38,541 nt of DNA from Fimbriimonadaceae bacterium (GCA_019638775.1 JAHBTD010000007.1:1-38541), one strand, 5' to 3'; shown: positions 1,244 through 29,223, numbered from the stretch's first letter. A program made the numbers and translations. Notes: generated by a model not told the origin, from the sequence alone.

Positions 1244-1696
1244 TCACCTCCACGGTTCCGGTAACGGCATCACGCTCACATGCGTCGCTTTAGCCCGGAC
1301 TCGTACCACCCGCCCCATCAAACTCACATCCACCAGCACATCCTCACCGTCCAAGGCTCGGACGATGCCCGTCATCTGCGCATATGGGCCCGAACTCACC
1401 TGCACCACGTCGGCCACCTTGGCCAGGAGTGGTTCAACATTGCTAAGGTCCTCGAAGAGGTCGCTATCCAGCAAAGGAAGCGCTCGCACCACTCCAGACA
1501 GCCGCTTGATCACGGGAACGGCCGTTGGATCACAGTGAGCAATCACATAGCCCTTTGTCGGACGTTCCACGTCCGTGCACCCCAACTCCTGGAGCTGCAA
1601 GGCCACGTGTCGTTCACGGCCTGGCGTGACATCAAACGCCCACCGTGCATGTAACGCATTCTCAGTGGAGCACGCCTCTGTTTGTCTGTCGCTCAC
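1244..1696 (-). CDS. NusG/Spt5-like transcription elongation factor (NGN + KOW)
   Basis: A 150-residue protein starting at GTG 1696, which has a near-ideal AAGGAGG five bases upstream; a longer frame from 1855 would run into the transglycosylase gene and lacks that site. Residues 17-85 read as an NGN domain (ARWAFDVTPGRERHVALQ, then TKGYVIA). Residues 96-140 are a clear KOW domain (VVQVSSGPYAQMTGIVRALD, then GRVVRVRAKATHVSV). NusG-family proteins bind the RNA polymerase clamp and keep elongation processive; specialised paralogues (RfaH, LoaP, plasmid ActX) act on particular long operons. The short NGN loops and total length look closer to archaeal Spt5 than to a housekeeping NusG of about 180 residues. 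It lies between the lytic transglycosylase and the HD protein. A dedicated antiterminator for transfer genes is inferred from context. Confidence 0.85.
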   Translation of the reverse strand: MSDRQTEACSTENALHARWAFDVTPGRERHVALQLQELGCTDVERPTKGYVIAHCDPTAVPVIKRLSGVVRALPLLDSDLFEDLSNVEPLLAKVADVVQVSSGPYAQMTGIVRALDGEDVLVDVSLMGRVVRVRAKATHVSVMPLPEPWR

Positions 1697-1737
1697 AGTT
1701 CCTCCTTTTGAAAACCGCTCCACCTCACCCCGCGGAC

Positions 1738-2361
1738 TCATCGCAGCAAGCCACGGGCTCGTCTGATGCCTGCGAGGCGCTCCAATGCCCGATACACCTT
1801 CCAGCTGTAGCCCGCGATGTTGCGACTGCCGTTGTAACGGCCTACGGCTGTCCACGTTTCTTGGTACTCATTGATCTTCTGCCGCAAGACAAAGGCAGCC
1901 CATTGGATATTGATACAAGGATCGAGAAAATGGACTGGATCAATTTTGTACTGCCGCATGTGCACGCTATTGATCTGTGCAATCCCCACATCAAAATTCG
2001 CCCCCGCCTTCCACAGTTCAGCAACCAGATCCGTCGCTTGCTTGAAAGAAAGTGGTCCTCGCCGATCCCCCTTGCCGTCCCGATTCACATTCACCGCATG
2101 CGGATCCCCTTCACTCTCCACTAGAATAATGGCTTCCAATATTTGCACGGTCACCGCGTAGCGATTCGCCGCCGCCACAACACAACTGTGGTTCACATAC
2201 CAAAACCGGTCCGGAGGCATCTCCGCCGCAACACTGTCCGGCAAGACACCGAGACATACCACCGCAAGACAGAACCACGTCGAACGGCGACTTTTCGGTC
2301 TGGAGAATGCACCCAGAGGCCCACCATACCCCCGTCTTAACAGGTGCCTGTGTAGGTGCAT
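1738..2361 (-). CDS. Lytic transglycosylase of the conjugation apparatus (VirB1/TrbN-like)
   Basis: A 207-residue secreted protein. After a basic N-terminus, a hydrophobic signal peptide (about residues 28-46, ending VAA) precedes an SLT fold. The probable catalytic glutamate is E82 in ILVESEGDP, and the family's GIxQIN motif is present as VGIAQINS near residue 126. Such enzymes cleave the MurNAc-GlcNAc bond without hydrolysis and open the peptidoglycan for the secretion channel; conjugation systems usually carry one (F orf169, RP4 TrbN, VirB1). The ATG used overlaps the end of traN by 25 bases and has only a weak ribosome site, so the true start may differ slightly. The fold and catalytic motifs are clear. 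Confidence 0.9.
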   Translation of the reverse strand: MHLHRHLLRRGYGGPLGAFSRPKSRRSTWFCLAVVCLGVLPDSVAAEMPPDRFWYVNHSCVVAAANRYAVTVQILEAIILVESEGDPHAVNVNRDGKGDRRGPLSFKQATDLVAELWKAGANFDVGIAQINSVHMRQYKIDPVHFLDPCINIQWAAFVLRQKINEYQETWTAVGRYNGSRNIAGYSWKVYRALERLAGIRRARGLLR

Positions 2362-4295
2362 ATCTTCGTCGCCATTTCCTTCGTGATCACAGCCGGGTCA
2401 ATATTCGCTGAAACATTTTTGTACCATTCCGTGAAATCCATCGCCTGGAAGTTCAAAGCGCTGAACTGATCGACCGTAAATCCGTCGCACTGGGGCGCAT
2501 CCGCTGATCCCCAGGTCATGCCCAACTGCACACGGCCTTGTTCCTGCACCATCCGACCGAGCTCGGATTTCATAGTGCAGTAGACCTCTTCCTTTCGGAG
2601 GCACACACTGCCGACCAGAAAGGAGCCTTTATCCACACAATGTGTCCCAATTAGATGAGCCTTTCGATCGTGTTTATCCCTCGCAAGCGCGATCTCCTCC
2701 TCAGAGCATTTCCCAATCAATTTATCGGGGTCCGAATCGCAGCAATTGATTAGTGATCGCCCGATTGTGCTGAAATCACAGGTGCTCCTTTTGCCCGTGA
2801 AGATACGCAGACGGTCCGGATCCCAATCTTCTTCGACATTCTTGGTCATCGCCAGCCAGGTGGCCGCTAACGCCAGATTCTCATTGGGTGGCGTACTGGT
2901 ATCCACGCAAAACGGCACAGGACTGTCTGGTTTCCCACACTTCGTGCATTGAGTAATCGGTTGCGTCGTCGAACATTCCGACGGTCCCGGACACTTGTAG
3001 GTGTTCTCGTACATCAAGCAATATCCCGTCCCCGGCTGCACCGATGCGCAGCGAGAGCTGACTTGATTGCAGCCCTTGTCTCGATACTCGCCACAGGTGT
3101 CCCCGGCCGTGGACGTGACATCCCAGGTTTGCTCCTCTTGAAAGCATCCCGTTAAGGGCGCCACGCTGTACGTATCAAGAAAGGTTCCCGTTACCATGAC
3201 CGCAATCGAATGCGACTCGTAAGTAAATGTAAACGGAACTTGCCAGCTGAGCGGGCCGGTGGGACTGAAGGCGCCCATCGTAAACGTCATGGGATACCCA
3301 AAGCATGAGCACTTGCTATTGCAGTAGGCCGGCGAGCCATTTCCAGAGGCCGTCGGGTTCGCCGGAGTCAACACGTAAGGCCCGGTCTTCACCGAGCCAA
3401 CATTTGTGCAGCCGTATTTGTCTTCTCCGGCGGAATTGCCAGTGACGTTCAAGCCGACCACCCATCGAGTTCCATCCCAGATAGGAAACGCCGATTCGAT
3501 CGTAAAATTGCCCATGGCCATTCCCGGCGCATGGTCGTGCGCGTTGAATCCAGAAGTCCCCCCGGTCAGCACGGTGGCATACGGTTGAGCACACTTGAGA
3601 TCCCGCGCAGCTCCATCGAGACAGGTCGTAGTCACCAGTGCGGCGAGGCCACTGGCGCCAGCCGCTTCTAGATCCTTGCACCCATTGACCTCCGTCTCAG
3701 AGGTATAGGGAGGGCTGGGAATTCCAGGAACCGTGCACGCGTTCGGTAGCAGGGTGGGGTTGCGAATCTTGAGGCAGGTCTGCCGTGAGCCCCCAGGCAC
3801 TTGGCAGGTCCCCGTGACGCCAGCCCCTTCGGTGTAACTCGTGCACATATTCACCACGGAACAGCTCTCCGTCATGATGGAATCGGTCGGCAGCGTCGCT
3901 GCCGTCGATTGCGCCGTCGTCACCGGGCTACTAGTCCGTAGATCCCACCCATCTCGGTCAATCCTGCTCTGTTGGATTTTCGAGTAACGCTCATCGGAGC
4001 TCGCCGCCGCACCGCCGGCCGCGCTCAAACTGCCAGGATCATCGTAATACCTCTCTTCAGCAGCCCCAGAGCACCCTGCCGTGACACAACCCGGCGACCC
4101 TGAGTACTGCGGCACTTTGGTCATGTTCGGCGCCAGAATACCTGCACCGACTAATCCTGAGGCCTTCTGCCCCTCTACCTCACACTTCGCTTTGAGGTAC
4201 GGATCGTCAATCCCACTGCAATCTGCGCGTACCTCCACAACACCACACACCAAACAGATCGCGAGGCAAATCCCTATGAGCATGCGCTTCATCAC
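2337..4295 (-). CDS. traN: TraN, cysteine-rich outer-membrane mating-pair stabilisation protein
   Basis: A 652-residue protein with a cleavable signal peptide (ends EVRA before DCSG) and many scattered cysteines, many in CxxC or CxC arrangements (for example CTKCG, CSCFG, CCDSD). Size, signal and cysteine load fit F-type TraN (about 600 residues), an outer-membrane protein exposed on donors that contacts the recipient surface and fixes mating pairs. Folding would need the periplasmic thiol enzymes encoded in the same element (the DsbC-like protein and TraF). A GTG at 4295 and an ATG at 4292 share one GGGGAGG site, so the start may be either. The variable middle part, which decides recipient preference in known TraN proteins, cannot be matched to a known type by eye. 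Confidence 0.85.
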   Translation of the reverse strand: MMKRMLIGICLAICLVCGVVEVRADCSGIDDPYLKAKCEVEGQKASGLVGAGILAPNMTKVPQYSGSPGCVTAGCSGAAEERYYDDPGSLSAAGGAAASSDERYSKIQQSRIDRDGWDLRTSSPVTTAQSTAATLPTDSIMTESCSVVNMCTSYTEGAGVTGTCQVPGGSRQTCLKIRNPTLLPNACTVPGIPSPPYTSETEVNGCKDLEAAGASGLAALVTTTCLDGAARDLKCAQPYATVLTGGTSGFNAHDHAPGMAMGNFTIESAFPIWDGTRWVVGLNVTGNSAGEDKYGCTNVGSVKTGPYVLTPANPTASGNGSPAYCNSKCSCFGYPMTFTMGAFSPTGPLSWQVPFTFTYESHSIAVMVTGTFLDTYSVAPLTGCFQEEQTWDVTSTAGDTCGEYRDKGCNQVSSRCASVQPGTGYCLMYENTYKCPGPSECSTTQPITQCTKCGKPDSPVPFCVDTSTPPNENLALAATWLAMTKNVEEDWDPDRLRIFTGKRSTCDFSTIGRSLINCCDSDPDKLIGKCSEEEIALARDKHDRKAHLIGTHCVDKGSFLVGSVCLRKEEVYCTMKSELGRMVQEQGRVQLGMTWGSADAPQCDGFTVDQFSALNFQAMDFTEWYKNVSANIDPAVITKEMATKICTYTGTC

Positions 4296-4308
4296 AGACA
4301 GCCTCCCC

Positions 4309-4800
4309 CTATCGACGCGTGCCTAACCGAGCCGTATCCAATGAGGGCACCGTCATCTCGTCCATCCCTACCGCTTCTCCCAGTGAATTTCCGTCCGGCG
4401 GATGTCGAGCGGACTGGTCCCTTGCAACGAAGGGGGACAGTTCACCGGCCAAAATCGTCCCAAGCGCGTCACGATCCATAAACTGAATCGGCGTTCCCCG
4501 CATGATGATTTGTGCCATACCCCACCCCCAGTATCGTGCCGTCACCTGATGAATCTGAATGTCGAAACCAATGATCAGGTCAGCTCCCAACGCCGCAGCG
4601 CTTTGCGCAAGCCTATTCACCATGCTCTGAGTCGCATGGACGATCGGACTGTCATACGTCTTCGCGCGCCCTCCCCAGAAATCGGTGAATCGGACAACGG
4701 CATCCCGCCAGGAAGCGATCCCGACGGTCTCGATCTGAATCAATGCCTGAAAATACCGATAGGTATGTCCGGGAATGACATCCACCGTAAGAATTTTCAT
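4309..4800 (-). CDS. YbjQ/UPF0145-like protein
   Basis: A 163-residue cytosolic protein with no signal peptide. It shows the pattern of the YbjQ/UPF0145 (DUF74) family: an opening strand (MKILTVDVIPGHTY), a long helix ending ALGADLIIGFDIQIHQV, and a hydrophobic strand (YWGWGMAQIIMRGTPIQF). The family forms pentameric rings; its function is poorly known, and it is sometimes annotated as heavy-metal-binding without firm proof. The C-terminal 40 residues are polar and probably disordered. It starts six bases after the coiled-coil lipoprotein and precedes traN by about 13 bases, so it is co-transcribed with transfer genes. Its role there is unknown. Confidence 0.65.
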   Translation of the reverse strand: MKILTVDVIPGHTYRYFQALIQIETVGIASWRDAVVRFTDFWGGRAKTYDSPIVHATQSMVNRLAQSAAALGADLIIGFDIQIHQVTARYWGWGMAQIIMRGTPIQFMDRDALGTILAGELSPFVARDQSARHPPDGNSLGEAVGMDEMTVPSLDTARLGTRR

Positions 4801-4806
4801 TCGGGC

Positions 4807-5778
4807 CTATCGCTTTTCGGTATCAGACGGTGACACCTCGGCCTTCTTCGGAGCATCTGCGTCGATACTGATCGTCAATGTGTTCATGGGCGCGGCCATC
4901 ACTTCCCCATCGACAGCCGGAAGAAGGGGACGTCCAGTTGAAGCTTTTCCGGACATCCCAGAAGCTAGAGGAGGAGGCACCAGTTCCGCGTTTTGCCCAT
5001 TCCCCCCACGGAAGCCATCCAGAAATCGTCGTAACCATCCTTTGTCCGCATCGGGCTTGGTTCGAGGCGATTCGACCTTAGCCTCTATCACCCTCTGAGG
5101 AACGGGCATCGGCACATCCGGTTTGGCAGGGACAGTGGTCGTCGCCACTGGACTTGGAGCGACCGCCAGGCTCGTCCCGCTCGGCTCAACACCCGAGCCC
5201 CCAGCGCCTACGCTCCCCTCCATATTCGGACTGCCAGCCTTGGCGACAGGTTCAGTTTTGGGAGCACTTCCTGACTTACCCTCACCCAACTGGACGCGCG
5301 TTTTCTGGACGTCGGGAGCACCCCCTCTAGCCTGCAAGGACTTCCCAAGTTTCCCAATCGACAGTTCAACACGTTCGAAGCGATTGGCTAAGGCGACCGT
5401 CGTTTCTGTGAGGGTTTCGATCTTCCCCGCAATATTTTGCAGGCGCGCGTCGACTCCGGACAGTTGTTGCGCCTGCTGCGCAAACTGCGCCCGCTGGGAC
5501 TCGTACTGATTCTGGGTGTCTTTCACCACCCCCTTCACGGTCAGGATGTCCCCCTGCAGTTTTTCCGCTTGGGCCTTTAGTCCCATCTGCTCTTGCGCAA
5601 CATGCCGATACACCTGGGATACATTGTCGACTCGCTGGGACAGCTCGTCGTGCTCGGTCTCCATGACTTCCTTCACCGCGAGTTGATGCTGGTACTTGGT
5701 TTCCAAATCCTGATATTCACCGGTGCTGACGCAACCGGACAACAGTGCGAGACTAAGGGCTGCCATGCGTTGCCACAT
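4807..5778 (-). CDS. Coiled-coil lipoprotein of the transfer operon
   Basis: A 323-residue protein with a short lipoprotein signal (LALLSGC, lipidated C16) and a good AAAGGAG site before its ATG. Residues about 20-150 form long heptad-patterned helices rich in Q, E, K and V, a predicted periplasmic coiled coil that probably oligomerises. Residues 150-250 are Gly/Pro/Ser/Ala-rich and likely disordered, followed by a short basic segment (WLRRFLDGFRGG) and a Pro-rich tail. I do not recognise a named family. Lipid anchor plus periplasmic coil suggests a structural or spanning part near the mating apparatus. It sits between the helical protein gene and the YbjQ-like gene in a compact run. Confidence 0.6.
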   Translation of the reverse strand: MWQRMAALSLALLSGCVSTGEYQDLETKYQHQLAVKEVMETEHDELSQRVDNVSQVYRHVAQEQMGLKAQAEKLQGDILTVKGVVKDTQNQYESQRAQFAQQAQQLSGVDARLQNIAGKIETLTETTVALANRFERVELSIGKLGKSLQARGGAPDVQKTRVQLGEGKSGSAPKTEPVAKAGSPNMEGSVGAGGSGVEPSGTSLAVAPSPVATTTVPAKPDVPMPVPQRVIEAKVESPRTKPDADKGWLRRFLDGFRGGNGQNAELVPPPLASGMSGKASTGRPLLPAVDGEVMAAPMNTLTISIDADAPKKAEVSPSDTEKR

Positions 5779-5822
5779 ACCGTGCTCCTTTCATACGAGA
5801 GGGGTGACTACCTCCCTTTTCC

Positions 5823-6467
5823 CTATTGGTTCAAAAATGCTTTCACCGCGCCCCGCGGCTCATACTCTGTCACCGTCACGCGAGCGACATGCCCGATGAC
5901 ATCGTGCAAGGCCACTACAAGCTCATCGACGGCCTGAAAATGTTTCACATACGGAGTGAGATCTTCCGCTCGGAGACGAATGCTATTGAGCGCGTTATCT
6001 AGGGCGCGAATCACCGGCACCAGTCTCACCGTGTCTCCGACGCGGGGCGTAATGACACGCGCATTGCGCCACGCCGCCTTCACGCTCCGTTCTTTTAGGT
6101 CGGGATATGGGTCTTGAGGGAGCAACTCGAACTCCCCCACTCCAAGCTCTCGCAAGATCACCTTTGCCCGCGCCACCCATTGCTCCACACGAGCCAACTC
6201 GTTGCGCACTTGCTCAATGGAGAGCTGAGATCCTGCTGCCCGCCGAAGACGATGAATTACCTTGTCAAACATGTACAGCATGGAGACACAGGCCATCCCC
6301 GCTTTTGTTTGTGGTAAAAGGAGCACCGAATTCGGATCTTCCAGCCGCCGCTTGTTCTCCTCCGCCCGATCGGGCCTTCGTCCATTCGTCGGAGACGCGC
6401 TCCGAAGAGACTGGCCCTCGCGCCGTACCATCCCCAGTTGTCGCTCTGCGTCCACCCCATGAGCCAT
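5823..6467 (-). CDS. Helical protein of unknown function next to the NusA-like gene
   Basis: A 214-residue protein with no signal peptide or membrane segment. The first 50 residues are polar and probably disordered. The rest is mostly amphipathic helix: one pair around residues 60-115 (FDKVIHRLRRAAG to ILRELGVGEFELLP) and another near residues 150-205 (VPVIRALDNALNSIRLRAED to VVALHDVIGHVARV). I do not recognise the family. The ATG has a strong GAGGAGGTGAGGC site and lies 15 bases after the NusA-like stop, so the two are co-expressed. A partner of the NusA-like protein is conceivable but rests on adjacency alone. Confidence 0.5.
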   Translation of the reverse strand: MAHGVDAERQLGMVRREGQSLRSASPTNGRRPDRAEENKRRLEDPNSVLLLPQTKAGMACVSMLYMFDKVIHRLRRAAGSQLSIEQVRNELARVEQWVARAKVILRELGVGEFELLPQDPYPDLKERSVKAAWRNARVITPRVGDTVRLVPVIRALDNALNSIRLRAEDLTPYVKHFQAVDELVVALHDVIGHVARVTVTEYEPRGAVKAFLNQ

Positions 6468-6482
6468 GCCTCACCTCCTCGA

Positions 6483-7136
6483 TTACGCCCGAGCTGTCTT
6501 CCCCAGATCCGCTTCGTCCACGAGCACCAGTCCATAGCCGGTCAATTTGCTGGCCACCGCAGCATTCATCCCCTTGCGACCAAGAAACTGTGCGATCGTG
6601 CCCCGTTCAACAATGACTCGCGCCTGATGTTCTTCCCGATACACGTCCACTCGTCGCACTGACCGGCTCGGGGCCGGCGCTAATGCCTCACGAATGTAGG
6701 CTTCCACCTCCGTGTGATACTTCACGAGTGCGATCGTGCGGGATGTGTAGGTCCGGAACTCGTACAACAGAGGCTTGCAGGTCGCGATGACATCTTCCCC
6801 CGTGCGATAAGTCTCGACCGCAATCTTCACAAACGACGCGGCTTGAGCCGTCGCCACACGCTTGATGTGCACATGGTCGTCCGCCAACACCGGAGCCAGC
6901 ACTAACTCCGCAATACGCCGGAAATAGTGCATCGATCGCTGCGACAGCATCGGAAACTCGTCACCGACCTTGTACACAGCTCCCATCAATGAGTCGCGTA
7001 CCTTGTACTGACGGTCGGCATACTGATGCGGCAAGATGGCATACCTCCCGATGGAATCCGCCCACAGCAGATATGCGCTGTGCCCCGGATCCATCCGAAT
7101 GACCCGAGCCATTACTAAGTCTCCCACCTGCACCAT
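6483..7136 (-). CDS. NusA-like RNA-binding protein (S1-KH-KH, no N-terminal domain)
   Basis: A 217-residue protein colinear with the central part of NusA. Residues 1-65 are an S1 domain (VQVGDLVMARVIRMDPG, ILPHQYADRQYKVRDSL), ending in MLSQRSMHYFRRIAELVL where NusA has its LSRTxPxFLxxLFE motif. Residues 80-155 match KH1 and the linker (HIKRVATAQAASFVKIAV, IREALAPAP as in NusA ALSPA). KH1 has lost its GxxG loop (KPLLYEF in its place). KH2 at 160-206 is intact: VIVERGTIAQFLGRKGMN, with the GxxG at 186-189, then ASKLTGY. Missing are the N-terminal domain that docks on the RNA polymerase flap (about 125 residues) and any acidic C-terminal repeats. NusA modulates pausing, termination and antitermination by binding nascent RNA. 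This gene opens the left transfer operon, divergent from the lipoprotein pair. An antitermination role is inferred. Confidence 0.85.
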   Translation of the reverse strand: MVQVGDLVMARVIRMDPGHSAYLLWADSIGRYAILPHQYADRQYKVRDSLMGAVYKVGDEFPMLSQRSMHYFRRIAELVLAPVLADDHVHIKRVATAQAASFVKIAVETYRTGEDVIATCKPLLYEFRTYTSRTIALVKYHTEVEAYIREALAPAPSRSVRRVDVYREEHQARVIVERGTIAQFLGRKGMNAAVASKLTGYGLVLVDEADLGKTARA

Positions 7137-7218: not shown

Positions 7219-8517
7219 ATGCCCAACAGGTATTACCGGATCACTCCCACTCCGCTTCTATCCTCATCCAGAGGGAAGATCCGCTCTCTTGCGTACCTTG
7301 CTTGGCTGTGGTCTAGTCGGACGATCAGCGTGCTCCTCCTCGTGCTCGTCACCTTGGTATCTTGTGCCCCCGTCTTCACGCCGACCACTTTGCAGAACTT
7401 CAAAGAATCGCGTGAAACCAGCTCAACGACGGCTGTAGAACGTCCTCGATTGGCACTATCACCCCACAGTGATGGCCTGGGATGGACGGTGAGAGTCACC
7501 CAAACCGTTGAGGAGAAGAATCGGATCAGGCGAGAAGAAGTCTGGGGAGGATATACCTATGAACGTCGGCTCAATCTTGTCACGATGGTGGGAGGGGGAC
7601 TACTCTGTGCTCCAAATCTCCTGTTGAATACCCTCTTTTCCATGGGAACACCAAACCAGCCGGGATGGAGTTCACCATGGCAATACTGCCTGGCCGCCGC
7701 CGGATATGACGTGCCTGGCCGCGCCGATACCCGAACTCGGATCGCTGATGACCTCGATCCCCAGGTTCAGACTGTTACGCGGATAATTGTGGACGGTGAC
7801 CTTCGGCTCACTTTTGCCGCCGATGGACGGGACCGCATTGGGATTGCCGTCCCTGTGAGTAAGGATTCTCAAGGGACGCACATCCGCCTTCGATGGCTTG
7901 CAATGGCTTTACGGGAACAGGGCGTGAATCCTGCCGACGTCCCTGACGGGACCGTCGAGATTTCCTACAGTCCAACTGTCGGCAACCCCGGCCCGACCAC
8001 ACAGTTGCCGATCGACGGGCACGTACTCACCGCTATGCTGCAGCACGATCTCGCAGTGCTCCCCCAAGATCGCTGGCCGAAGCAGCCTCGCCTCAGGCTG
8101 GCGGTCAACAATGACTGGGGACACGAACAGTCCCAGTTGATAGTAGACAGGCTTATTGGCCGTATGAAGGAGCGCGGCCTTCCGCTGGTCATCCGAAACG
8201 AACGGTATCGGAAACTAGTTCCTGTCCAGGTCCGGCAACTCGCTCCGTTCTTTAATGATGAGCGACAACCGTCAGCCGGCATGGGCACCGGAGCAAATCT
8301 GCTCGTATCCATCGACATCGCCTCTGCTTCAGATCAGGGGCTGCTGCTCACCACGACTCTTGTCTCTGTTGAGACCGCACAAGTGCTGGCTCAGTTTGTC
8401 CTCGAATGTCCGATCAACGCCGTCGCGCCAACGGCCGAAACTCTGGCGGCAGTTGTCACCGATCTCGTCCTGCCCCATGGTCCCACTCTCACACGGGGAT
8501 GGTTCGTCACACCATGA
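7219..8517 (+). CDS. Outer-membrane lipoprotein with FlgO/CsgG-like C-terminus (paralogue 1)
   Basis: A 432-residue protein. A hydrophobic stretch (residues 36-48) ends in a lipobox (TLVSC, C49). Residues about 70-200 contain the segment SPHSDGLGWTVRVTQ, which recurs as TPHHDQQRLTIRVTQ in the next gene, making the two paralogues. Residues about 290-420 resemble the FlgO/CsgG/LpoB fold: helix (QLIVDRLIGRMKERGL), then GANLLVSIDIASAS and LLLTTTLVSVETAQVLAQF, the family's strand pattern for ring-forming or envelope-assembly lipoproteins. It lies on the opposite strand to all surrounding transfer genes and overlaps the next gene by four bases (ATGA). A role as an accessory outer-membrane channel or assembly factor is a guess. 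Confidence 0.6.
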   Translation: MPNRYYRITPTPLLSSSRGKIRSLAYLAWLWSSRTISVLLLVLVTLVSCAPVFTPTTLQNFKESRETSSTTAVERPRLALSPHSDGLGWTVRVTQTVEEKNRIRREEVWGGYTYERRLNLVTMVGGGLLCAPNLLLNTLFSMGTPNQPGWSSPWQYCLAAAGYDVPGRADTRTRIADDLDPQVQTVTRIIVDGDLRLTFAADGRDRIGIAVPVSKDSQGTHIRLRWLAMALREQGVNPADVPDGTVEISYSPTVGNPGPTTQLPIDGHVLTAMLQHDLAVLPQDRWPKQPRLRLAVNNDWGHEQSQLIVDRLIGRMKERGLPLVIRNERYRKLVPVQVRQLAPFFNDERQPSAGMGTGANLLVSIDIASASDQGLLLTTTLVSVETAQVLAQFVLECPINAVAPTAETLAAVVTDLVLPHGPTLTRGWFVTP

Positions 8518-9643: not shown

Positions 9644-10039
9644 TCACTTCGCATCCTGTACCTCAAGCACGCAATCACCATACACAGTGACAAGCAATGA
9701 TCCTGGATAGGTCCTATAGGTCTTCTTGTCTGCCTGAAGGTCAGAGGTTTCCCCAACAGTGTTTACGATTCTAATGTTAACCATCGCTCGCCCTCTGCTG
9801 GTCGTCCGGCACTGTTCTACAACTTCATGCAATACAGAGAGAGAATTCCCGCTGGATGAGGGGCTAAATTGCTGCGATCCGACAGCAATGGTTGAGCGTT
9901 TGATTGGTACTCCTGGAATCTCTGAACCAACGAACGATCCCAGCCATCCATCTTTTGGCGTCTCAGCTCTCGCGCCTCCTGACTGACTGATAACGATCGC
10001 GACCAGGACCATGAAAAGCGCTAGCTGACACAGCCGCAT
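9644..10039 (-). CDS. Small secreted protein closing the main transfer operon
   Basis: 131 residues with a classical signal peptide (cut after GARA, about residue 25) and a GGAGG five bases before the ATG. The mature part has a helix with one cysteine (SVLHEVVEQCRTTSRGRAM), then strand VNIRIVNTV and a C-terminal strand with a second cysteine (VTVYGDCVLEV), so one disulfide is possible. The helix followed by a VNIRI strand faintly recalls the YbjQ fold, but this is not enough to assign it. It follows traG by about 39 bases and is probably co-transcribed. Unknown periplasmic function. Confidence 0.6.
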   Translation of the reverse strand: MRLCQLALFMVLVAIVISQSGGARAETPKDGWLGSFVGSEIPGVPIKRSTIAVGSQQFSPSSSGNSLSVLHEVVEQCRTTSRGRAMVNIRIVNTVGETSDLQADKKTYRTYPGSLLVTVYGDCVLEVQDAK

Positions 10040-10078
10040 GAGAACCTCCGCTCCGGACAGAACGATTCACTGCCACTT

Positions 10079-13000
10079 CTATTTACCAGTATTCGGGGAC
10101 GATGGCTGCGTCCGTTCAACTCTTAATAACGACTCTTGGCCTTCCTGCCATTTAGGCATAGTCCCAAACGCATTCGACGCCTCTTCACCCATCATGCCGA
10201 GGGCCGATGTACGCACCGCATTATAAGCGGCATTGGCAGCAAAGTTCTGTAATTCTTCGGGAGACATGCTTTGTGCACGCCCGGTCTTTTCTAAATGTTC
10301 GACAGAACTGCGCGCAAACGAGATAGCATTATCCATCACTCCGGAATATTCTTTCCACCAGGCGCCCATATTTTGATGCGAGTCCAAAAGACCGCTCGGT
10401 CCCCCACCTCCACCAGGGCCATTCGGCACGGGTCCACTACCTGGCTGAATCGGTGTTCCTCCAACCCCTCCCCCACCAAATTTCCCCATTCGTCCTTTGA
10501 GGATCAAATATCGCGAAGCCCCATCCATTCCGATCCGACCAAATTCAAGCCCATAAGCAATCGCCTCGTCCGTCTGCGTAGGGTTTGTAATATCGGTGCC
10601 TTTGGCCGCAAACGCCATTTGTGTAATCGTTAGATTCGCCCCACTGTCATGATGAAATTGCACACGATTGAAGTCATGAAAATCGGAGCCTTTGTGACCG
10701 GACGAACTCAGCACATTCCCGCTACCGTCAAGTACATCGTTAACCGCAAATCCATGTGCCGCATACTCATTCTTCGATAGCTCCTTCGTATTTGCAATCA
10801 CGCTCGCCCCATCGGGCGACTGTGAATACTCCACTACCTGGAAGTGTTCTTGCCCTTGTGCATCAGTACGGTACTGACCGATTTTCCCTGTTTGCAAGTC
10901 CGTTACTTCTGACGCAATTAACTGGCCAGACTGAGGACTATAGTAGAACGTCCCCTGCAGCTCTTTGGTCTGCCCGGGATGCATAGCATCAGGCACGGTG
11001 AAAATGCCGGATTTACGCTCATTGTTATAGTACTGTGAGTCCAATCCGCCCAACACCGAATGATACAAGACTTCGCGCTGGCCGCCATCATCCTTCATAG
11101 GACCAAGGACTTGTGTGTCTATCGCTCCGTTTTTCGCCGCCACGACCTTCACGGTCTGATCGATAGAGCCGCTCATAGCCCCGCTGTTTGGATCCTCCAG
11201 TGACCTGGCGATTCCCCACACCTCGTTGCCTTCCCCATCTTTCATAAAGGTGGAATAGGTGTTATCGGTCACGTTGGTAATCGTCCCGCCCAGTAGCTTG
11301 CGCTCGCCAGTCTCACTACTGGTCGGGCCGTAGTAGAGATTGGCGAATACATCCATATCGCGATGGCCGTCATTGATCCGACGCCAGCCTGACTCTTTAT
11401 CGATCGACTGTACCTCGTTGTTGTACCCGCGCAGGGACTGCTCGAACTCAACGGTCATTTGACGCGATCCCCTCATCTGATCGCTATAAACGCGGACGCC
11501 ATCGAGCTCGACTGCAGAACTTTTGAACGCTCGCCCTTGGGCGTCCACAGACACGCCGTCAAAGGTACTTACCGAATGTGTGCCTCCTGGAGCCATCATG
11601 GTGTCCTCAACCCCGTACTGCAAACCCGACACACCAGATCCTTTTTCGATTATGTCCCTGGTTTGAGACCCAGAGGTCCCTTTAAACGCCACAATGTTGC
11701 CATTATCAATAAGGCCCGTCACATCGCGGGCCGGCGCCCCCGGTTGTTGCGCATACCCATGAAACATCTCAACTTGATGTCCATCTTGTCCCATCACATT
11801 TAACTGCGTGAACTGCCCAGACAAATGAGTGCCATCCACCAGATTACGTTCCCCGGAAATACTCTTGGTACCTCCCTCCCGCCCGTCAAAAAAGCTCACC
11901 TGGCCGTCGTATAACAGCGCATTGGCTTGAAACGCCGGAGAACCTGGCTTGCTATTGTCGATGGCAGAGCCGAAGAAGGCTGTCGGCACTCCTGGTTGAT
12001 TGGCTTCCCCATGACTCAGAGCCGTGAACGTGCCGCTCAGGGTGTAGGAACCGACCGTGTGGGTGTCGTGGGCAACACCGCTCGTGCCTGACTCAAAATG
12101 TTCCGTGGCTTCCACCAAGAACTGTCGTCCTGATGCATCGGTGCCCAATGTTCCTGTCACTGTGTGCGTGTGACCACCCTCATCACTGGTCAGACTGTAA
12201 CTGGAATAGATGTCTCGCGGATGCACCGGGTCCGAGCGATCGACTGACCCAAACGCCCTGACATATCCCTCCATCGGCCGAGTCACCCCATCTTTCCCTA
12301 AGACCATCTGTTCCGCTTGCCCAGTCTCCACAAAATAATTGGAACCGTCAGGGGAAACGAACGATTCCCTGTGGACGCCGGCCTCCGTATCCTTGTTGTC
12401 AAATCCTCGGACGGCCCCGCCCTCGGTCGCCAGAAAATGAAACTGTCCATCGCGTTCTACCAGTCGCCCGGTATACGATTGTTTCGCACCCATCGTGCTC
12501 TGAAATGTCGACTGTGTGAGGGTGTCTACCCGCTCGCCTGGCCCACGCTCACCCATCATCTGGACAAATCCGGCATCGGGACGTGTCTCGCCCGCGACTT
12601 CCAGAAACAACGGCACATTCCCCGATCGTGCAAAACTTTGACTACCGTCTTCAGCAATCGTACGCGTCTCGGACAGGCCTTTCCGAACGGATTGTTCCGT
12701 GCGCGCCACTAATTCTCCGGTATCCTGATTTTCCTGCACAAGCACGCTCTTCCTGGAGCCATCCTCCCCCATCGTATCGAAGCGATGCTCCACCATCGAA
12801 CCAAACACCGAGGTTTGTGCATCGACCTGCTTCCCGGACTGTGGATCAAACATCTTGTGACGGAACACCCCACTCAGCAGATGCCCCTTTGAATCCATTG
12901 AATACTGTCCTTCTGGCCCCTTGTAGTTCTGAATGCCGTTCGCGCCAATACTGGTGATGCCGCCCTGGGAGTCGTGGATCTCACTCGTGCCGGATTGACT

Positions 13001-14539
13001 ATCCACACGAAACCCACCCTGACCAGTCGGCACAGTCATCTGTGGTTCGACGTCATGGCCGATCATCTCGCCGAACTGGGCCCCACGCTGTTCGTGTCGA
13101 TAGGACGGGCCTTCCTCCAAATTGGCACCAAGCCCACGTGAGAACTGTCCTCCCACTTGCCCCGCGACGGTTTCCGCAGTCCGCGATCCTGCCAGGATCG
13201 ATCCCAACACCTGGCTTCCGCCCCACATCAGACCGAAACCGATCGCTGGCACGAGCCACACATAATCTGCGGCTGTGGAATTCAGCATGGCGACATGTTC
13301 ATTGATTCTGTCTAACGTTGCATAGTTGACGGATTGGCCAACCCCGTTTGAGCTCAGGATCGCGCCGAGCCGGCTTCGCGCTTCCCAAAACATGACAAAA
13401 TTCAGCACGGCATACAGAGGCGACCAGGTCTGGAGCCACATGAACAAGCGCCAATAGGTGCCCATCAACCGTGACATCCCAGGCGAAATGGCAAGCACTA
13501 GAAGGAACGGGGTCATGATGTACACAACCCCTTCCACAATGGTCCGTAATAGCGGTACGACCTTTTGAGCGACATAGGACTTCGAGTAGCTTTGGAACTT
13601 TAAGTCCTTTTGGATCGCCTGCTGCTGCAGAAGCACAGTGTCCGCAGTCGCCGCGCGCCGTTTGGCATCGGCGGATTCGGCGTTTTTCCACGCATGGATG
13701 AGCAGCACATTATTAATCATGTCTCGGGCCGATTGCCCGACGGATAACAAGAGATTCGCCCGGATGTCCTCAGTGAGCCCTTCCTCATCGCCGGTGGCCG
13801 GATCAAGCTGCAACTGTGTCCGCAAATGCCGCATCGCCCCTTCGTAGTCAGGCTGCCCCGTGGTATACGCAGGAAGGATGAGAGAACTATAGAAGTCGGG
13901 ACACACCCGCGGGGCCGCTTCCAACGTCCCACCTGTATATCCGAGTGCCGTGAGTGCGTTATTCGTAGCCCCGATATCATTGAGCAGATTCGGAGAATTC
14001 ATCAGCGTCCCGAGGTTCTTCTGGAGCAGGCCCACCTCCCGAAACACACACATCATAAAATATGAATCGGTATTGCGGGCCAGATCCGAGTCTTGCAATC
14101 TCGCATTGAGGACTTTTTGCAGATCGAATAGCGGGCGATTGAATGACGCTTGTCCCTGGGTATATTGCACGGGCATCGGAAACGACGCTTCGACAAGCTG
14201 AGTCGTGTAGTACCCTACTTGCCCCGAGAGGTATGCCGGTAACGCGATCGCCAGCGGCACACTGTTCACAATTTGATCCGGCACATCGGGATTGACTTGG
14301 TCTTCCACGGACACGTCGACCGTGATTCGGACACTGACAAAGAGAATGAAAAATGCCCCGACGACCAGCGGGACCAAGAAGCGCCGATTGAACACAAAAT
14401 ACACGAGTCCGAACATCGCGAAGACAAGAAGTGCGAGCTCCATCAAGCTTTCGAAGCGTCCGGTGGTCATCATGATCCGGATGCCCAGCAGAATCTGCGT
14501 CAGCACATCGCCGTTGCCAAACGTATAGATCGTCCACAT
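10079..14539 (-). CDS. traG: TraG, inner-membrane mating-pair protein with greatly extended C-terminus
   Basis: 1,486 residues; F TraG has 938. The N-terminal TraG_N domain is recognisable: MWTIYTFGNG, two membrane helices at about 30-75, a periplasmic part, and further helices near 340-450 (VYIMTPFLLVLAI, FMWLQTWSPLYAVLNFVMFW, VPAIGFGLMWGG). TraG_N works with TraN in mating-pair stabilisation and is needed for pilus assembly. From about residue 470 the protein is a Gly/Ser/Thr-rich, beta-prone periplasmic region with loosely repeated units (forms such as VTGTLGTDASGRQFLVEATE and LSGTFTALSHG), several hundred residues longer than in F, ending in a helical tail (about 1,400-1,486). In F TraG this end mediates entry exclusion together with TraS. 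No traS candidate is obvious nearby. Strong GGAGAGG start site; 44 bases after traH. Confidence 0.9.
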   Translation of the reverse strand: MWTIYTFGNGDVLTQILLGIRIMMTTGRFESLMELALLVFAMFGLVYFVFNRRFLVPLVVGAFFILFVSVRITVDVSVEDQVNPDVPDQIVNSVPLAIALPAYLSGQVGYYTTQLVEASFPMPVQYTQGQASFNRPLFDLQKVLNARLQDSDLARNTDSYFMMCVFREVGLLQKNLGTLMNSPNLLNDIGATNNALTALGYTGGTLEAAPRVCPDFYSSLILPAYTTGQPDYEGAMRHLRTQLQLDPATGDEEGLTEDIRANLLLSVGQSARDMINNVLLIHAWKNAESADAKRRAATADTVLLQQQAIQKDLKFQSYSKSYVAQKVVPLLRTIVEGVVYIMTPFLLVLAISPGMSRLMGTYWRLFMWLQTWSPLYAVLNFVMFWEARSRLGAILSSNGVGQSVNYATLDRINEHVAMLNSTAADYVWLVPAIGFGLMWGGSQVLGSILAGSRTAETVAGQVGGQFSRGLGANLEEGPSYRHEQRGAQFGEMIGHDVEPQMTVPTGQGGFRVDSQSGTSEIHDSQGGITSIGANGIQNYKGPEGQYSMDSKGHLLSGVFRHKMFDPQSGKQVDAQTSVFGSMVEHRFDTMGEDGSRKSVLVQENQDTGELVARTEQSVRKGLSETRTIAEDGSQSFARSGNVPLFLEVAGETRPDAGFVQMMGERGPGERVDTLTQSTFQSTMGAKQSYTGRLVERDGQFHFLATEGGAVRGFDNKDTEAGVHRESFVSPDGSNYFVETGQAEQMVLGKDGVTRPMEGYVRAFGSVDRSDPVHPRDIYSSYSLTSDEGGHTHTVTGTLGTDASGRQFLVEATEHFESGTSGVAHDTHTVGSYTLSGTFTALSHGEANQPGVPTAFFGSAIDNSKPGSPAFQANALLYDGQVSFFDGREGGTKSISGERNLVDGTHLSGQFTQLNVMGQDGHQVEMFHGYAQQPGAPARDVTGLIDNGNIVAFKGTSGSQTRDIIEKGSGVSGLQYGVEDTMMAPGGTHSVSTFDGVSVDAQGRAFKSSAVELDGVRVYSDQMRGSRQMTVEFEQSLRGYNNEVQSIDKESGWRRINDGHRDMDVFANLYYGPTSSETGERKLLGGTITNVTDNTYSTFMKDGEGNEVWGIARSLEDPNSGAMSGSIDQTVKVVAAKNGAIDTQVLGPMKDDGGQREVLYHSVLGGLDSQYYNNERKSGIFTVPDAMHPGQTKELQGTFYYSPQSGQLIASEVTDLQTGKIGQYRTDAQGQEHFQVVEYSQSPDGASVIANTKELSKNEYAAHGFAVNDVLDGSGNVLSSSGHKGSDFHDFNRVQFHHDSGANLTITQMAFAAKGTDITNPTQTDEAIAYGLEFGRIGMDGASRYLILKGRMGKFGGGGVGGTPIQPGSGPVPNGPGGGGGPSGLLDSHQNMGAWWKEYSGVMDNAISFARSSVEHLEKTGRAQSMSPEELQNFAANAAYNAVRTSALGMMGEEASNAFGTMPKWQEGQESLLRVERTQPSSPNTGK

Positions 14540-14583
14540 GATGCGCTATCCTCTCCCTCACATCGCAGACAGACTTACTCCGA

Positions 14584-15918
14584 CTACCGCAGCGATCGCA
14601 TTTCGCCCTGCGTCTTCGTCAACTGCATAAGCTGGTTGATGTTATTCACCATACGTTGCCGCTTCGCGAGACTCTCACTAGCCCCCCTTAGGATCTGATG
14701 CAGCCGCCCCTGAAAGTCTTGCAGATTGCCTGGCCACTCGGGTTTGACCTTTTGGATATAGCTAACGTTCCTGGACGTTTCGGTGGCCGCCCACTTCACC
14801 CATTGATACCCCATGTCCGCAGCGACCACTTCTGAAGACAATCGCGCAATCTGATTGCCGACATCCCGTGGACGCCCATAATCGGCGAGCATGGTCAGAA
14901 TGGGGACCGGGGTCATGTTGATGATTTGCTGATCTGTCGCGCTGATAGCTGAGCCGGAGTAGAGGTCTTCGATCAGGTTACTCATGGACGTATACACGCG
15001 ACTCTCGAATCCTTCGATATCGGTCGCGTCAGTAATCGTGGGGTTCAAACATTCCGAGTCGCCCCCACAATTAAACACTTTCACCACGTCGCCCAGATGA
15101 CTATCGACCAGCTGTTCGAAGGTCATCGTCGGATCGCGGGTTTGAACATCGCCATCGTTCCCGACTATAACGGTCCCGGTGACCGACATCACCATGACGA
15201 TGAGATTCTGATCCAGGCCAGCCTGCGTCAGGACATCCCACACCAGATTGCCAGTGACATCGTATTCCGTGCCTTTCAATGCTGAGGCCGCATCCGCATT
15301 CGACTGGTTCTTGACGGTATCCCGGTCTTCAAACACGTCTCCAATGGCGCCGCCCGCTTCCTTCATCTTCTGCCAGGCATCGCCGAATCGACTCGCGAGC
15401 TTTTGTTTGGAGGCTTCGTTCCCGGCTAGCGCTTTGCCCAATTCAATCCCTGTTTGACAGGGTTGGATCCGTCCCGCAGCATTGAGCGCTCTCGCAGCCG
15501 CTTCAATCTTGTTGAGCACGTCCGCGCAGTCTTCACAAATGGCTTTCATCGCCAGCTGGAAAGCGTACCCCAAGACGGCACCGGTCCCGATTTGCTGCAG
15601 CAATTGGACGTACCGATCTAGTTTGCCGTAGGAAAACGAGCCCAGGTAAACGTCGATGCCCTGGCAGCCCACGCTCAATCGCGGCGGGGCAATCGACCAC
15701 AACCGCATCGGGTCCTGCCACAAACGGACCGAGACCCCGCCGCCGCTGAAGTAGCCTCGACTTTGACTTTCGTAGGCACCTGGAGGACTCGTGATCCCGA
15801 CACCCCACGACGTGAACATGTTCGTAAGGGCATCATTCATCGACTGCGCCTGTACCAGGGGAGGCCAGACCAGTACTGCCCACATACACACTCCCACCAG
15901 AATCAGTTTGCTTCGCAT
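14584..15918 (-). CDS. traH: TraH, periplasmic pilus assembly protein
   Basis: 444 residues (F TraH: 458) from the ATG at 15918, preceded by AAAGGA; a frame extension to 16005 would overlap traF and lacks a signal. The signal peptide (LILVGVCMWAVLVWPPLVQA) is followed by the TraH hallmarks: an amphipathic N-terminal part (MNDALTNMFTSWGVGITSPP), a glycine-rich YFSGGGVSVRLW segment, a central CEDCADVLNKIEAAARALN helix and a C-terminal coiled coil. TraH interacts with TraF, TraU and TrbI in the F system and is needed for pilus extension and mating-pair stabilisation. It lies between traF and traG as in F. Confidence 0.92.
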   Translation of the reverse strand: MRSKLILVGVCMWAVLVWPPLVQAQSMNDALTNMFTSWGVGITSPPGAYESQSRGYFSGGGVSVRLWQDPMRLWSIAPPRLSVGCQGIDVYLGSFSYGKLDRYVQLLQQIGTGAVLGYAFQLAMKAICEDCADVLNKIEAAARALNAAGRIQPCQTGIELGKALAGNEASKQKLASRFGDAWQKMKEAGGAIGDVFEDRDTVKNQSNADAASALKGTEYDVTGNLVWDVLTQAGLDQNLIVMVMSVTGTVIVGNDGDVQTRDPTMTFEQLVDSHLGDVVKVFNCGGDSECLNPTITDATDIEGFESRVYTSMSNLIEDLYSGSAISATDQQIINMTPVPILTMLADYGRPRDVGNQIARLSSEVVAADMGYQWVKWAATETSRNVSYIQKVKPEWPGNLQDFQGRLHQILRGASESLAKRQRMVNNINQLMQLTKTQGEMRSLR

Positions 15919-15928
15919 CGTGTGTCCT

Positions 15929-16831
15929 TTATCCCTGAGACCGTCGCTCGCCCAACATTCCTCGGTTACGCAACAACACCAGCAAGCGCTCCCGTAGATC
16001 CGCATTCGTCATGAGACCGGCTCCGAGCGGCTTTAAGAAGTTCTCCTCAGGAATTGCCAAATAAATCATGGGCACCATATGCACGCCCACATTCTCCGCC
16101 ATGCCATTGTTAGTGGCGGGCTGCGGGTACTCCGGCAATCCCACCCCGTCCAGCGACACAGGTTTCACCGTCAGTCCGTAGGTATCGGCAAAGACCTTTA
16201 ATACCTTGGACTGTTCTTGACAAAACGGGCAGGTCGAGGTGAAGAAGAAGAACAGTCCGACCCGGTCGGCTGTGCCCGCCAGAAGCTGCTCTTCGGTGTT
16301 CCGCTTGATCTCGGCTTCGACGCTATGCCCATAGGTGGACGTGGGGTGTTGCGACGCATAGTCGAGTTTGGGGTCCGTGTACATGGCGATCTGCCATGCA
16401 TCGGTGAAGCGTTGCGAGCGGTCATACGCTTCCTTTTGCACTTTGATGTAAATCGTCACATTCTCGACCGAAGGATGATCCAACGCGCGTTCCTTCTTGG
16501 CCGACACCAGTTCACGCAATACCGTCATCGGAAGGGCGTTCAACTTCACGCCCTCGACCGAAAGCCCCTTAAACAGAGTTCGGTACTTCGACGGGTCCAG
16601 CCAAGCCTCTGGTGGTAAGCTATCCATCGTAACGGGGACAGGACTCTCTTCTGCGTCCTCCTCTGCCTCGGCTGACGGGTCCTGATAAGAGAACCACCCC
16701 TGCCTGGGATGGTCGATAAAAGTCTGAGACCCAGGAGGCTCAGCGGCCAGCACAGCACTGCTCACCACTCCCACCGAGCAGAAGGTCACGCAATACCAAG
16801 CTAGAGCATGCAGCAGTTTTGTCGTTTCCAT
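15929..16831 (-). CDS. traF: TraF, periplasmic thioredoxin-fold conjugation protein
   Basis: 300 residues from ATG 16831, which opens directly on a signal peptide (METTKLLHALAWYCVTF to VLAAEPPG) and overlaps the end of traU by 31 bases; a longer frame to 16918 lacks a signal. The C-terminal half is a thioredoxin fold with an intact CPFC active site near residue 200 (FFFTSTCPFCQEQSK), where F TraF itself has lost both cysteines. It is therefore probably an active thiol oxidoreductase acting on TraN, TraU and TraH. A cis-proline loop follows (VHMVPMIYLAIP). Residues 60-150 are the TraF-specific helical part. The ribosome site is weak, suggesting coupling to traU translation. Confidence 0.9.
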   Translation of the reverse strand: METTKLLHALAWYCVTFCSVGVVSSAVLAAEPPGSQTFIDHPRQGWFSYQDPSAEAEEDAEESPVPVTMDSLPPEAWLDPSKYRTLFKGLSVEGVKLNALPMTVLRELVSAKKERALDHPSVENVTIYIKVQKEAYDRSQRFTDAWQIAMYTDPKLDYASQHPTSTYGHSVEAEIKRNTEEQLLAGTADRVGLFFFFTSTCPFCQEQSKVLKVFADTYGLTVKPVSLDGVGLPEYPQPATNNGMAENVGVHMVPMIYLAIPEENFLKPLGAGLMTNADLRERLLVLLRNRGMLGERRSQG

Positions 16832-17889
16832 AGCAGCCACACAAAATCCTCTCCAACGGCTGGCACGATTTTCCCGAGCCCCCACATCATGAGTGTCCGT
16901 CCTAGAGGCTGACAGCACGGGGGAGGGAGTCCTGTGTTTGGAATCGGCCAGAGTAATTGAAACTTGTACTGGCTTTTCACAATGAGTGCGGTCGGGATGT
17001 CCTCACACAGCAGCGGACCATTAGCGGAGGTCCAAAACTCTGTTCCCGCGCGGGCCAGTTTCGCTAACAATCGCGTCATCGACAGCGCGGCAGGTTTGAG
17101 GTCCCCATCCGCTCCTGAGACATGCCCAGTCGGCGGATACATGAATCCAAAGCTCCCGGCGCACCAGAACAGCGGATCAATTGGGAAACCGACTGCTGCA
17201 GCTACCGAATCGGCCGCGCAGGCCGCGAGTGCCACCGGATTGGCCAGGACCAATGCCTCCGGAAAGAGAATGAGTGAAATCAGGTCGTCGTCCCACAAGG
17301 GATCAATCTCGGAGGCATAGGCCAAATCGATTTCGTCTGCGATCCCGGTAGGATTCAGACACAGAATGTCCATTCCGATACCAACGATGGCCCATAGGGG
17401 AAAAACGAAATAATGCACATGAAAAAAGGCATAATTTAGCTCGGAGTCCATCTGTGTCGTAGCCATGCCACGCCCGATGTAACTGAACCCCCCGGCCAAA
17501 GACACACCGAGCGTCGGAAAGCACAGTGGATCGTGGACCGCCTCGACAAGATTCTTCGGCTCCCAGATGCCCAGAGGTAGCCCAGGAATGCAGATCGGAC
17601 CAAGACACACACACCCACACAACTGCGGCGGAAACGGGGCGTGTCCAGGACCGATGGCCGGTTCGGTAAAATCTTCTCCCAGGTTAAACACCGTGACCCC
17701 GCTGAGAGAAATGGGAAACATGCACTCCCAACACGTCGTAGCGAGACTATTCGCCAACACATTGGTCCCTGTCGTGCACACCGCCTCTGCGGAGCCCGAC
17801 GGCCACAGAGTCGCCACGCTGATCAGGACACAACTCAGGCAGACCAGCAGCAGCATATGCTGTATCCGTCTTTTCGAGGGCTTATTCAT
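16801..17889 (-). CDS. traU: TraU, periplasmic DNA-transfer/pilus protein
   Basis: 362 residues (F TraU: 330) with a signal peptide (LLLVCLSCVLISVATLW to GSAEA) and many cysteines, including CWECMFPISLSGV and CGCVCLGPICIPGLPLG, both typical of TraU, and the family's C-terminal pattern WKRQNCC. In F, TraU is needed for DNA transfer more than for pilus growth and acts in the periplasm with TraW, TrbC, TraF and TraH. The ATG overlaps the end of the trbC-traW gene by eight bases, after GGAGGAGGTGG, so expression is coupled. Confidence 0.93.
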   Translation of the reverse strand: MNKPSKRRIQHMLLLVCLSCVLISVATLWPSGSAEAVCTTGTNVLANSLATTCWECMFPISLSGVTVFNLGEDFTEPAIGPGHAPFPPQLCGCVCLGPICIPGLPLGIWEPKNLVEAVHDPLCFPTLGVSLAGGFSYIGRGMATTQMDSELNYAFFHVHYFVFPLWAIVGIGMDILCLNPTGIADEIDLAYASEIDPLWDDDLISLILFPEALVLANPVALAACAADSVAAAVGFPIDPLFWCAGSFGFMYPPTGHVSGADGDLKPAALSMTRLLAKLARAGTEFWTSANGPLLCEDIPTALIVKSQYKFQLLWPIPNTGLPPPCCQPLGRTLMMWGLGKIVPAVGEDFVWLLWKRQNCCML

Positions 17890-19087: not shown

Positions 19088-19132
19088 GGTACCTCCATTT
19101 CAGAATGTCTGTATGGAGTATTACCGACCTAG

Positions 19133-22154: not shown

Positions 22155-22178
22155 ATTCGCTCCTCTGGGTTCCTTCCA

Positions 22179-22910: not shown

Positions 22911-22948
22911 GTCGCATGCCTCCTCCAGAATCCGCCCACTCGACTTCT

Positions 22949-23734: not shown

Positions 23735-23754
23735 GCCCCCTTTCACACTACGAA

Positions 23755-25041: not shown

Positions 25042-25061
25042 CCTAGGTCTCCGGTCTGAGG

Positions 25062-25835: not shown

Positions 25836-25845
25836 ACGTCTCCCC

Positions 25846-26427: not shown

Positions 26428-26432
26428 CGTCG

Positions 26433-26714: not shown

Positions 26715-26792
26715 CTGTCCCTCTTCTGCTTCATTGTGACGGCGGGGCCATGATCTGTCCCGCCGTCACGACACCATGCCTGTACCGCCCGC

Positions 26793-27113: not shown

Positions 27114-27226
27114 ACTCCAGCCCCTCCTCTGGCTCGTCGCTCACTGTTTACAAGACGTGTGGTTGCCAAACCGAATGAGCGCCCTTAGTTCATTCCAGCA
27201 TAGCCATGCTCCTCCTCAGCCTCTCC

Positions 27227-28072: not shown

Positions 28073-28178
28073 ACTCCCCCCTTTCACCACGGCTTCCGAG
28101 TCGCCAGGTTCATCTTTGGTATTACCGACTGCCACGGTGTATCGAACGGAAACAGGGGTTGCCGGATATCGGAAGGGA

Positions 28179-29207: not shown

Positions 29208-29223
29208 CAGCCCTCCTACTGCG

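Follow-up and report, generated by a model that had tools for sequence, protein, structure and literature searches.

Why would a mobile element carry homologues of both NusA and NusG, two transcription elongation factors, beside its transfer genes? The question is raised by a stretch of DNA of 38,541 nucleotides (nt), JAHBTD010000007.1:1-38541 of assembly GCA_019638775.1 (Fimbriimonadaceae bacterium), here called the window. It is the complete contig C7 of a 4.3-Mb genome (G000), and among named sources its genes have their closest copies in Nitrospira metagenome-assembled genomes (MAGs). A full F-type type IV secretion system (T4SS) gene set, on the minus strand, extends from about 30.0 down to 9.6 kb, and a second minus-strand cluster, running from position 7136 to past the contig end, encodes a NusA-like and a NusG/Spt5-like protein. 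An earlier examination of the DNA, the sequence-only reading, had proposed that these two proteins form an antitermination pair for the long transfer operon. Our analysis suggests that the two genes are part of a Nitrospira conjugative element that brings its own means of having its transfer genes transcribed by the host RNA polymerase, a reading to which we assign a probability of about 0.45. The earlier observation is right, and to the element there also belong a sigma-like factor and a signal shared by several leaders.

Homologues of NusA and NusG

The NusA-like protein, of 217 amino acids (aa), matched the NusA model TIGR01953 in NCBIfam (E 2.8e-13) and NusA chains in the PDB (E 5e-7 and weaker). 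When it was compared by hhalign with six chromosomal Nitrospirota NusA proteins, a probability of 97.7 and an E value of 1.8e-12 were obtained, and its residues 3-213 aligned to NusA residues 161-373, which make up the S1, KH1 and KH2 domains. Identity to the host's own NusA was about 25%. Several other matches to the NusA-like protein were rejected: one on a viral contig (L038) was a chance match inside a helical phage protein, and the plasmid matches were, among those inspected, chromosome-type nusA genes as judged by annotation or neighbours, such as the Niveibacterium nusA with rimP and rpsO alongside. The huge-phage match was a full-length NusA, a complete 423-aa open frame at 2557-3828 on the plus strand of a 636-kb phage record (L048, LR756504.1).

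Hidden Markov model searches of the NusG-like protein returned KOW matches alone, and these were weak. In a Foldseek search with its AlphaFold2 model, NusG/Spt5 chains filled the first 40 ranks (best E 7.6e-5, probability 1.00). When the protein was compared by hhalign with three NusG proteins, its residues 48-140 aligned with an E value of 8.8e-6 and a probability of 83. On the predicted model and the profile comparison the protein is clearly recognizable as NusG-like, and by fold and profile only. Its gene was taken to be 1244-1696, encoding 150 aa, and not 1244-1855, because the GTG codon at 1696 stands behind a strong Shine-Dalgarno sequence, AAAAGGAGGAACTGTG, also written AAAAGGAGG. Profile, hhalign and Foldseek results thus support the presence of both homologues, as the sequence-only reading had claimed. 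Among 291 Nitrospirota genomes, a clear match to the NusG-like protein was found in the host only, and the one weak match elsewhere was a chromosomal NusG. No match was detected in 72,556 plasmids by tblastn at E 0.01, nor was a relative found in viral contigs scanned with the NusG-like protein and TraU.

When 84,980 species genomes were scanned once, with the NusG-like protein as query, four loci besides the window were identified. The protein was identical in Nitrospira RBC083 (L039), 84% and 78% identical in two further Nitrospira loci (L040 and L041, respectively) and 78% identical in a MAG labelled Mesorhizobium (L042). All eight genes from the NusA-like to the HD-domain gene were found in the same order in 4/4 loci and in the window, that is, in 5/5 copies. 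Identity across the four loci was 93-100% for the NusA-like protein (93-99% among the other copies that are independent) and 90-99.5% for the helical protein encoded next to it. For the NusG-like protein, comparison of the diverged copies gave 83-85%. In the diverged copies, the ratio of nonsynonymous to synonymous substitution rates (dN/dS) was 0.06-0.09 for the NusA-like gene, 0.10-0.22 for the helical protein gene and 0.19-0.23 for the NusG-like gene, values by which all three are under purifying selection. Lack of co-occurrence can therefore not be held against the proposed pair, at least inside this one lineage of closely related elements, because both genes and the helical protein gene are present in every copy.

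Variation was seen elsewhere in the element. The lipoprotein genes at 7219-9638 have diverged in L041, and of those in L042 just fragments are left, while TraN is a mosaic, with ends that are 79-91% identical between lineages and a middle, residues 141-452, that could not be aligned. Such a variable middle is as would be expected if that part of TraN chooses recipients. The L042 copy lies on contig JAHBYX010000018.1, so that the same element is present in a MAG labelled Mesorhizobium, either by mis-binning or by transfer between phyla.

The helical protein had been suggested as a possible third part of the system. It adjoins the NusA-like gene and was kept in 5/5 copies, at 90-95% identity in the diverged ones; this co-conservation is the sole basis for the suggestion. 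No match was found in Pfam, NCBIfam or plasmids, and its AlphaFold2 model (pLDDT, the predicted local distance difference test score, of 48) was too poor for use.

The leader motif and the sigma-like protein

The 9-mer CGGTAATAC occurs four times in the window, always on the minus strand and always before a gene. It is the only 9-mer found in 4 of 35 leaders of 120 nt, and second-order Markov simulations reached four in 1 of 1000 runs. As the exact pattern YCGGTAATAC, the four window sites compare with 0.038 expected if the motif were as frequent as in the three big contigs of the chromosome (P 8e-8). Genome-wide, G000 has 17 exact copies, and none of the pattern read backwards. The three megabase-size contigs carry one each; four other contigs (C10, C11, C20 and C31) carry seven together; and the remaining three, on C24, C41 and C52, overlap long open frames. 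Chromosomal copies of CGGTAATAC all lie inside long open frames (11/11), and the motif is absent from chromosomal leaders.

In the diverged T4SS copy on C10, three sites stand at orthologous spots before T4SS genes; on C11 the motif lies 16 nt before the start of the coupling protein TraD, with another site intergenic; and on C20 and C31 it precedes a TSCPD gene and an unassigned gene, respectively. Copies before TraT are exact or have one mismatch. The sites before TraD, TraT and the TSCPD gene provide an independent test, since these contigs were not used in motif discovery. Throughout, the motif has the same strand as the gene that follows it, whose start codon is 16-93 nt away. All ten letters of the window's four sites are unchanged at orthologous sites, while the surroundings differ by 13-21%. 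In the TraD/TSCPD divergent region, the variants CCGG, TCTGG and TCAG were found before TAATAC. The AATAC end is the stricter part, because sites vary in the CGG part (CAGTAATAC, CTGGTAATAC, CGGCAATAC). No aligned column around the motif sites was conserved, and no -35 element was seen. The 9-mer CGGTAATAC is also a stretch of the universally conserved 530 loop of 16S rRNA, and the site before o273 (30088-30113, minus strand) continues as GAGGGT, much as in 16S rRNA; this is possibly a coincidence.

In order to test whether the motif might be a promoter, we searched G000 for sigma region 2. One match was found on C10, to a protein of 238 aa whose residues 36-101 correspond to region 2 (PF04542, E 6.4e-10). 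Region 4 was not detected: whether in Pfam, NCBIfam or the PDB, every match ends at about residue 110. The protein is 87% identical in genome G291 and 83% identical in G292. In G291 its gene is on contig C28, together with TraD, and at its other end this contig shares 99.2% identity with window positions 30414-36508; C20 matches this contig at 99.6%, and C31 matches G291:C42 at 98.7%. Together, C10 and C11 represent a second element in the same bin, about 84% identical. C10 (L080, L081) holds a second, diverged F-type T4SS, with the sigma-like gene at 734-1447 on the minus strand and an XRE regulator at 1785-2465 on the plus strand.

A sigma factor with no detected -35-binding region and a signal with no -35 element fit each other. 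We therefore consider YCGGTAATAC more likely to be a -10-type promoter of the element sigma than an antiterminator loading site.

Signals of other kinds were also looked for in the window. A sigma-70 promoter scan gave no more than shuffled sequences. A search for ops sites yielded 8 matches with up to two mismatches against 5.65 expected, which does not exceed chance, and most of them were inside genes. For a nut-like linear box and hairpin downstream of the motif sites, the mean z was -0.45, compared with -0.07 in control leaders, and an Rfam search of the window found no known RNA family. Several motif sites are followed by hairpins that can be spotted by eye, but these were discarded, being no better than those in shuffles or control leaders.

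Possible mechanisms

Taken together, these observations suggest how the element might run its transfer genes on the host polymerase. The element sigma, of which region 2 only was detected, would direct the polymerase to YCGGTAATAC, which in front of the transfer genes would act as a -10-type signal standing alone. By homology, the NGN domain of the NusG-like protein would then clamp the elongating polymerase, and the NusA-like core would bind the nascent RNA through S1 and KH2. As a result, transcription of the long T4SS operon may become more processive, or coupled to translation, as it does through host RfaH on F-like tra operons. A more specific proposal, that a private trio of region-2 sigma, NusA core and compact NusG drives one YCGGTAATAC-marked transfer regulon from initiation through elongation, is tentative and rather doubtful.

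Several observations weigh against the element running its own transfer genes in this way. The NusA-like gene begins at the S1 domain, so that the N-terminal RNA-polymerase-binding domain of NusA is missing, and the protein has a single GxxG motif, at residue 186 in KH2 (GRKG), KH1 being without a GxxG loop. The NusG-like model had a mean pLDDT of 56.9 (75-91 over most of residues 20-70). By VIA-align, its NGN domain was indistinguishable from other ferredoxin-like folds, NusG, RfaH and Spt5 scoring Z 6.4-7.0 and unrelated entries as much as 8.6, and this comparison was not used. Intrinsic terminator-like sites in the T4SS region were not in excess (12 against 15.2 and 15 against 18.6 in shuffled sequences). 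The sigma gene is on sister contigs and not on the window contig, and in G000 it was found on the second element copy (C10) only. The motif could also belong to other regulators of the element, namely a LuxR-type response regulator with a PAS kinase on C11 or the XRE regulator on C10. Finally, all copies belong to one closely related element lineage, and co-occurrence may therefore reflect shared ancestry more than function. The two genes do occur together and in order in every copy, which supports shared membership and does not prove shared function. Of its antitermination pair, the homology and the co-occurrence stand; the terminator excess, ops site and nut-like hairpin that might have accompanied such a pair were not found. 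An antitermination mechanism is possible and unproven, and a pair that aids the polymerase through a 20-kb operon would be a reasonable arrangement.

The motif itself could instead be a recruitment site, acting as ops-like non-template DNA for the NusG-like protein or as RNA for the NusA-like protein and so completing an antitermination system. Its asymmetry, its constant strand, its place 16-93 nt before start codons and the lack of a conserved -35 would all suit such a site, as would its occurrence before the NusA-like cluster itself and the CGGTA that it shares with the ops core (ops-like GGCGGTAG, PMC2871177). However, an ops core predicts that the CGG part should be kept, and diverged sites keep AATAC and vary in CGG; the TraD copy lies just 16 nt before the start codon; and no downstream hairpin exceeds chance. 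We lowered this explanation because the sigma gene was found, a region-2 protein on the same element being the simpler owner of the motif, and now consider it unlikely. The position of the sites near Shine-Dalgarno sequences (5 nt before that of TraD, for example) would also suit a post-transcriptional role, in which the NusA-like protein regulates translation or stability of transfer mRNA and the KOW domain of the NusG-like protein links to the ribosome. S1 and KH are general RNA-binding modules, but the homology here is specific to NusA and NusG and not to generic KH or S1 proteins, and we regard such a role as quite improbable.

The precise truncation of the NusA-like protein, with S1-KH1-KH2 kept and the N-terminal domain gone, raises the alternative that it antagonises host NusA or acts as a decoy for it. 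Having no polymerase-binding domain, it would compete for nascent RNA or for NusA partners and thereby relieve NusA-stimulated pausing and termination, while the NusG-like protein would serve as the clamp factor. There is a parallel in LoaP, a NusG paralogue that promotes antitermination by antagonising NusA (PMC12691694). Nevertheless, loss of the KH1 loop would weaken competition for RNA, and a decoy would act genome-wide, at a cost; we therefore give this explanation little weight. It could also be that each of the two genes is a passenger, retained in this element lineage for reasons unrelated to the other, and that they do not act jointly in transcription of the transfer genes. A single element lineage is known, and in none of the 72,556 plasmids was an element-type relative of either gene detected. 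Yet both genes are kept in order and under selection in every copy, whereas the lipoprotein genes and the TraN middle vary or are partly deleted, and we find it hard to credit that they are mere passengers. Our preferred reading remains that both genes belong to an element running its own transfer genes on the host polymerase.

Organization of the element and its relation to known systems

The features of the window are listed in the table. The second cluster runs, with all genes co-directional, in the order NusA-like, helical, coiled coil, YbjQ, TraN, transglycosylase, NusG-like and HD. The two factor genes had been described as flanking an operon. This needs correction, since the HD-domain gene, which starts 2 nt past the NusG-like stop codon, continues beyond the NusG-like gene, and both factor genes lie inside one longer cluster; in L042 the HD-domain protein is full, at 459 aa.

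Features of the window (positions in nucleotides; dash, minus strand)
Feature	Position	Strand	Basis or remark
HD-domain protein, runs off contig end	1..1242	-	PF01966, E 1.8e-7
NusG/Spt5-like protein, NGN + KOW, 150 aa, GTG start	1244..1696	-	Foldseek, hhalign
Lytic transglycosylase	1738..2361	-	PF01464, E 7.9e-15
TraN mating-pair stabilisation protein	2337..4295	-	PF06986, E 1.4e-41
YbjQ-domain protein	4309..4800	-	PF01906, E 4.2e-13; in 5/5 copies
Coiled-coil protein	4807..5778	-	Weak coiled-coil Pfam matches; in 5/5 copies
Helical protein, 214 aa	5823..6467	-	15 nt past NusA-like gene
NusA-like protein, S1-KH1-KH2 core only, 217 aa	6483..7136	-	TIGR01953, hhalign
Motif CCGGTAATAC	7230..7239	-	93 nt before NusA-like start codon; unchanged in L039, L041, L042
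F-type T4SS gene run, proposed target	9644..30036	-	Profile matches; orthologous runs elsewhere
Motif TCGGTAATAC	19118..19127	-	30 nt before TrbC-TraW, just past S26 stop codon; unchanged in C10, L045
Motif TCGGTAATAC	28119..28128	-	Before OmpA-family gene; unchanged in C10, L045, L046
Motif TCGGTAATAC	30088..30097	-	42 nt before o273, first T4SS-run gene; unchanged in C10, L045, L046

The T4SS gene run of about 20 kb that the sequence-only reading had placed on the minus strand was confirmed. It comprises o273, DUF1016, OmpA, pilin-like, TraL, TraE, TraK, TraB and DsbC, followed by TraV, TraC, S26 peptidase, TrbC-TraW, TraU, TraF, TraH, TraG and o131, the pilin-like and TraL genes being assigned by eye and position. 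A single 401-aa protein encoded at 17882-19087 is TrbC fused to TraW. Orthologous runs were found in L045 (99.5%), in L046 (85%) and on C10. Between the T4SS run and the second cluster, the plus strand carries two divergent lipoprotein-like genes (7219-9638), which overlap. The NusA-like gene is separated by 82 bp from the lipoprotein gene that diverges from it, and the dyad AGTTnnGAGACnnnGTCTCnnAACT in this gap (7195-7220), largely kept in L041, is a possible operator.

The T4SS run and the helicase genes have between them a TnpB/OrfB-type gene (30399-31805), probably inserted there, because the sister copy L046 is without most of it. Between divergent RecD2-like and PD-(D/E)XK genes there is a perfect inverted repeat, with arms of 19 bp around a 2-nt centre (CTGTGACATACCGTTTTGG TT CCAAAACGGTATGTCACAG, 33927-33966), which is probably an operator, since it is conserved in L046, C10 and G291:C28. 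The contig ends showed no overlap that would prove a circular molecule. G291:C42 (L092), at 4180-17009, carries genes for E2-like and ThiF proteins, for the large subunit of exonuclease VII and, at full length, for DNA polymerase III alpha, and this region is likely to be part of the same element.

The late sigma factor gp55 of phage T4 has region 2 without a detectable region 4 and recognizes late promoters that have no -35 element. The element sigma likewise has no detected region 4, and its putative motif no -35. It differs from gp55 in the motif sequence, in having no known gp33 or clamp partners and in belonging to a conjugative element, and the link between sigma and motif is here inferred. 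The NusA-like protein resembles bacterial NusA in its S1-KH1-KH2 core (NusA 161-373) with GxxG in KH2, but it is of 217 aa, compared with about 350-460 aa for host-type open frames, and its gene is in a transfer gene cluster. With NusG/Spt5, RfaH, ActX and LoaP, the NusG-like protein shares NGN and KOW domains; unlike these paralogues it has only 150 aa, a short NGN and a NusA-like gene as partner. ActX is a NusG paralogue carried on conjugative plasmids in pilus operons (PMC7819879), and the NusG-like gene similarly adjoins a long transfer operon. The protein is not ActX, because it has no detectable relative on the plasmids searched.

Transcription of F-like tra operons requires host RfaH and an ops site (PMC7303359). 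The tra operons of F and R1 and the element described here have in common an F-type T4SS operon, a NusG-family factor and a short leader signal. In the former the host supplies the factor, and ops is the signal; the present element encodes the factor itself and has YCGGTAATAC as its signal, which is likely to be part of a promoter. Other conjugation operons are also known whose processivity is controlled by the element, namely through conAn of pLS20 and the antitermination of Tn916 (PMC8955417, PMC11658703). These are Gram-positive systems that employ protein and RNA or other parts, their proteins differ from those described here, and the pLS20 operon is terminator-rich, unlike the T4SS region of the element. 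In the literature searched, we found no conjugative element with a NusA-like core, nor one with NusA-like, NusG-like and sigma-like proteins together.

If the three factors act as a set, this would be a rare transfer system that brings both initiation and elongation factors, in a host group, the Nitrospira nitrifiers, whose mobile elements have been little studied. The YCGGTAATAC regulon provides a short list of sites at which a promoter could be told from an antiterminator loading site. If the proposal is true, the trio would free the element from the specificity of host sigma, NusA and NusG.

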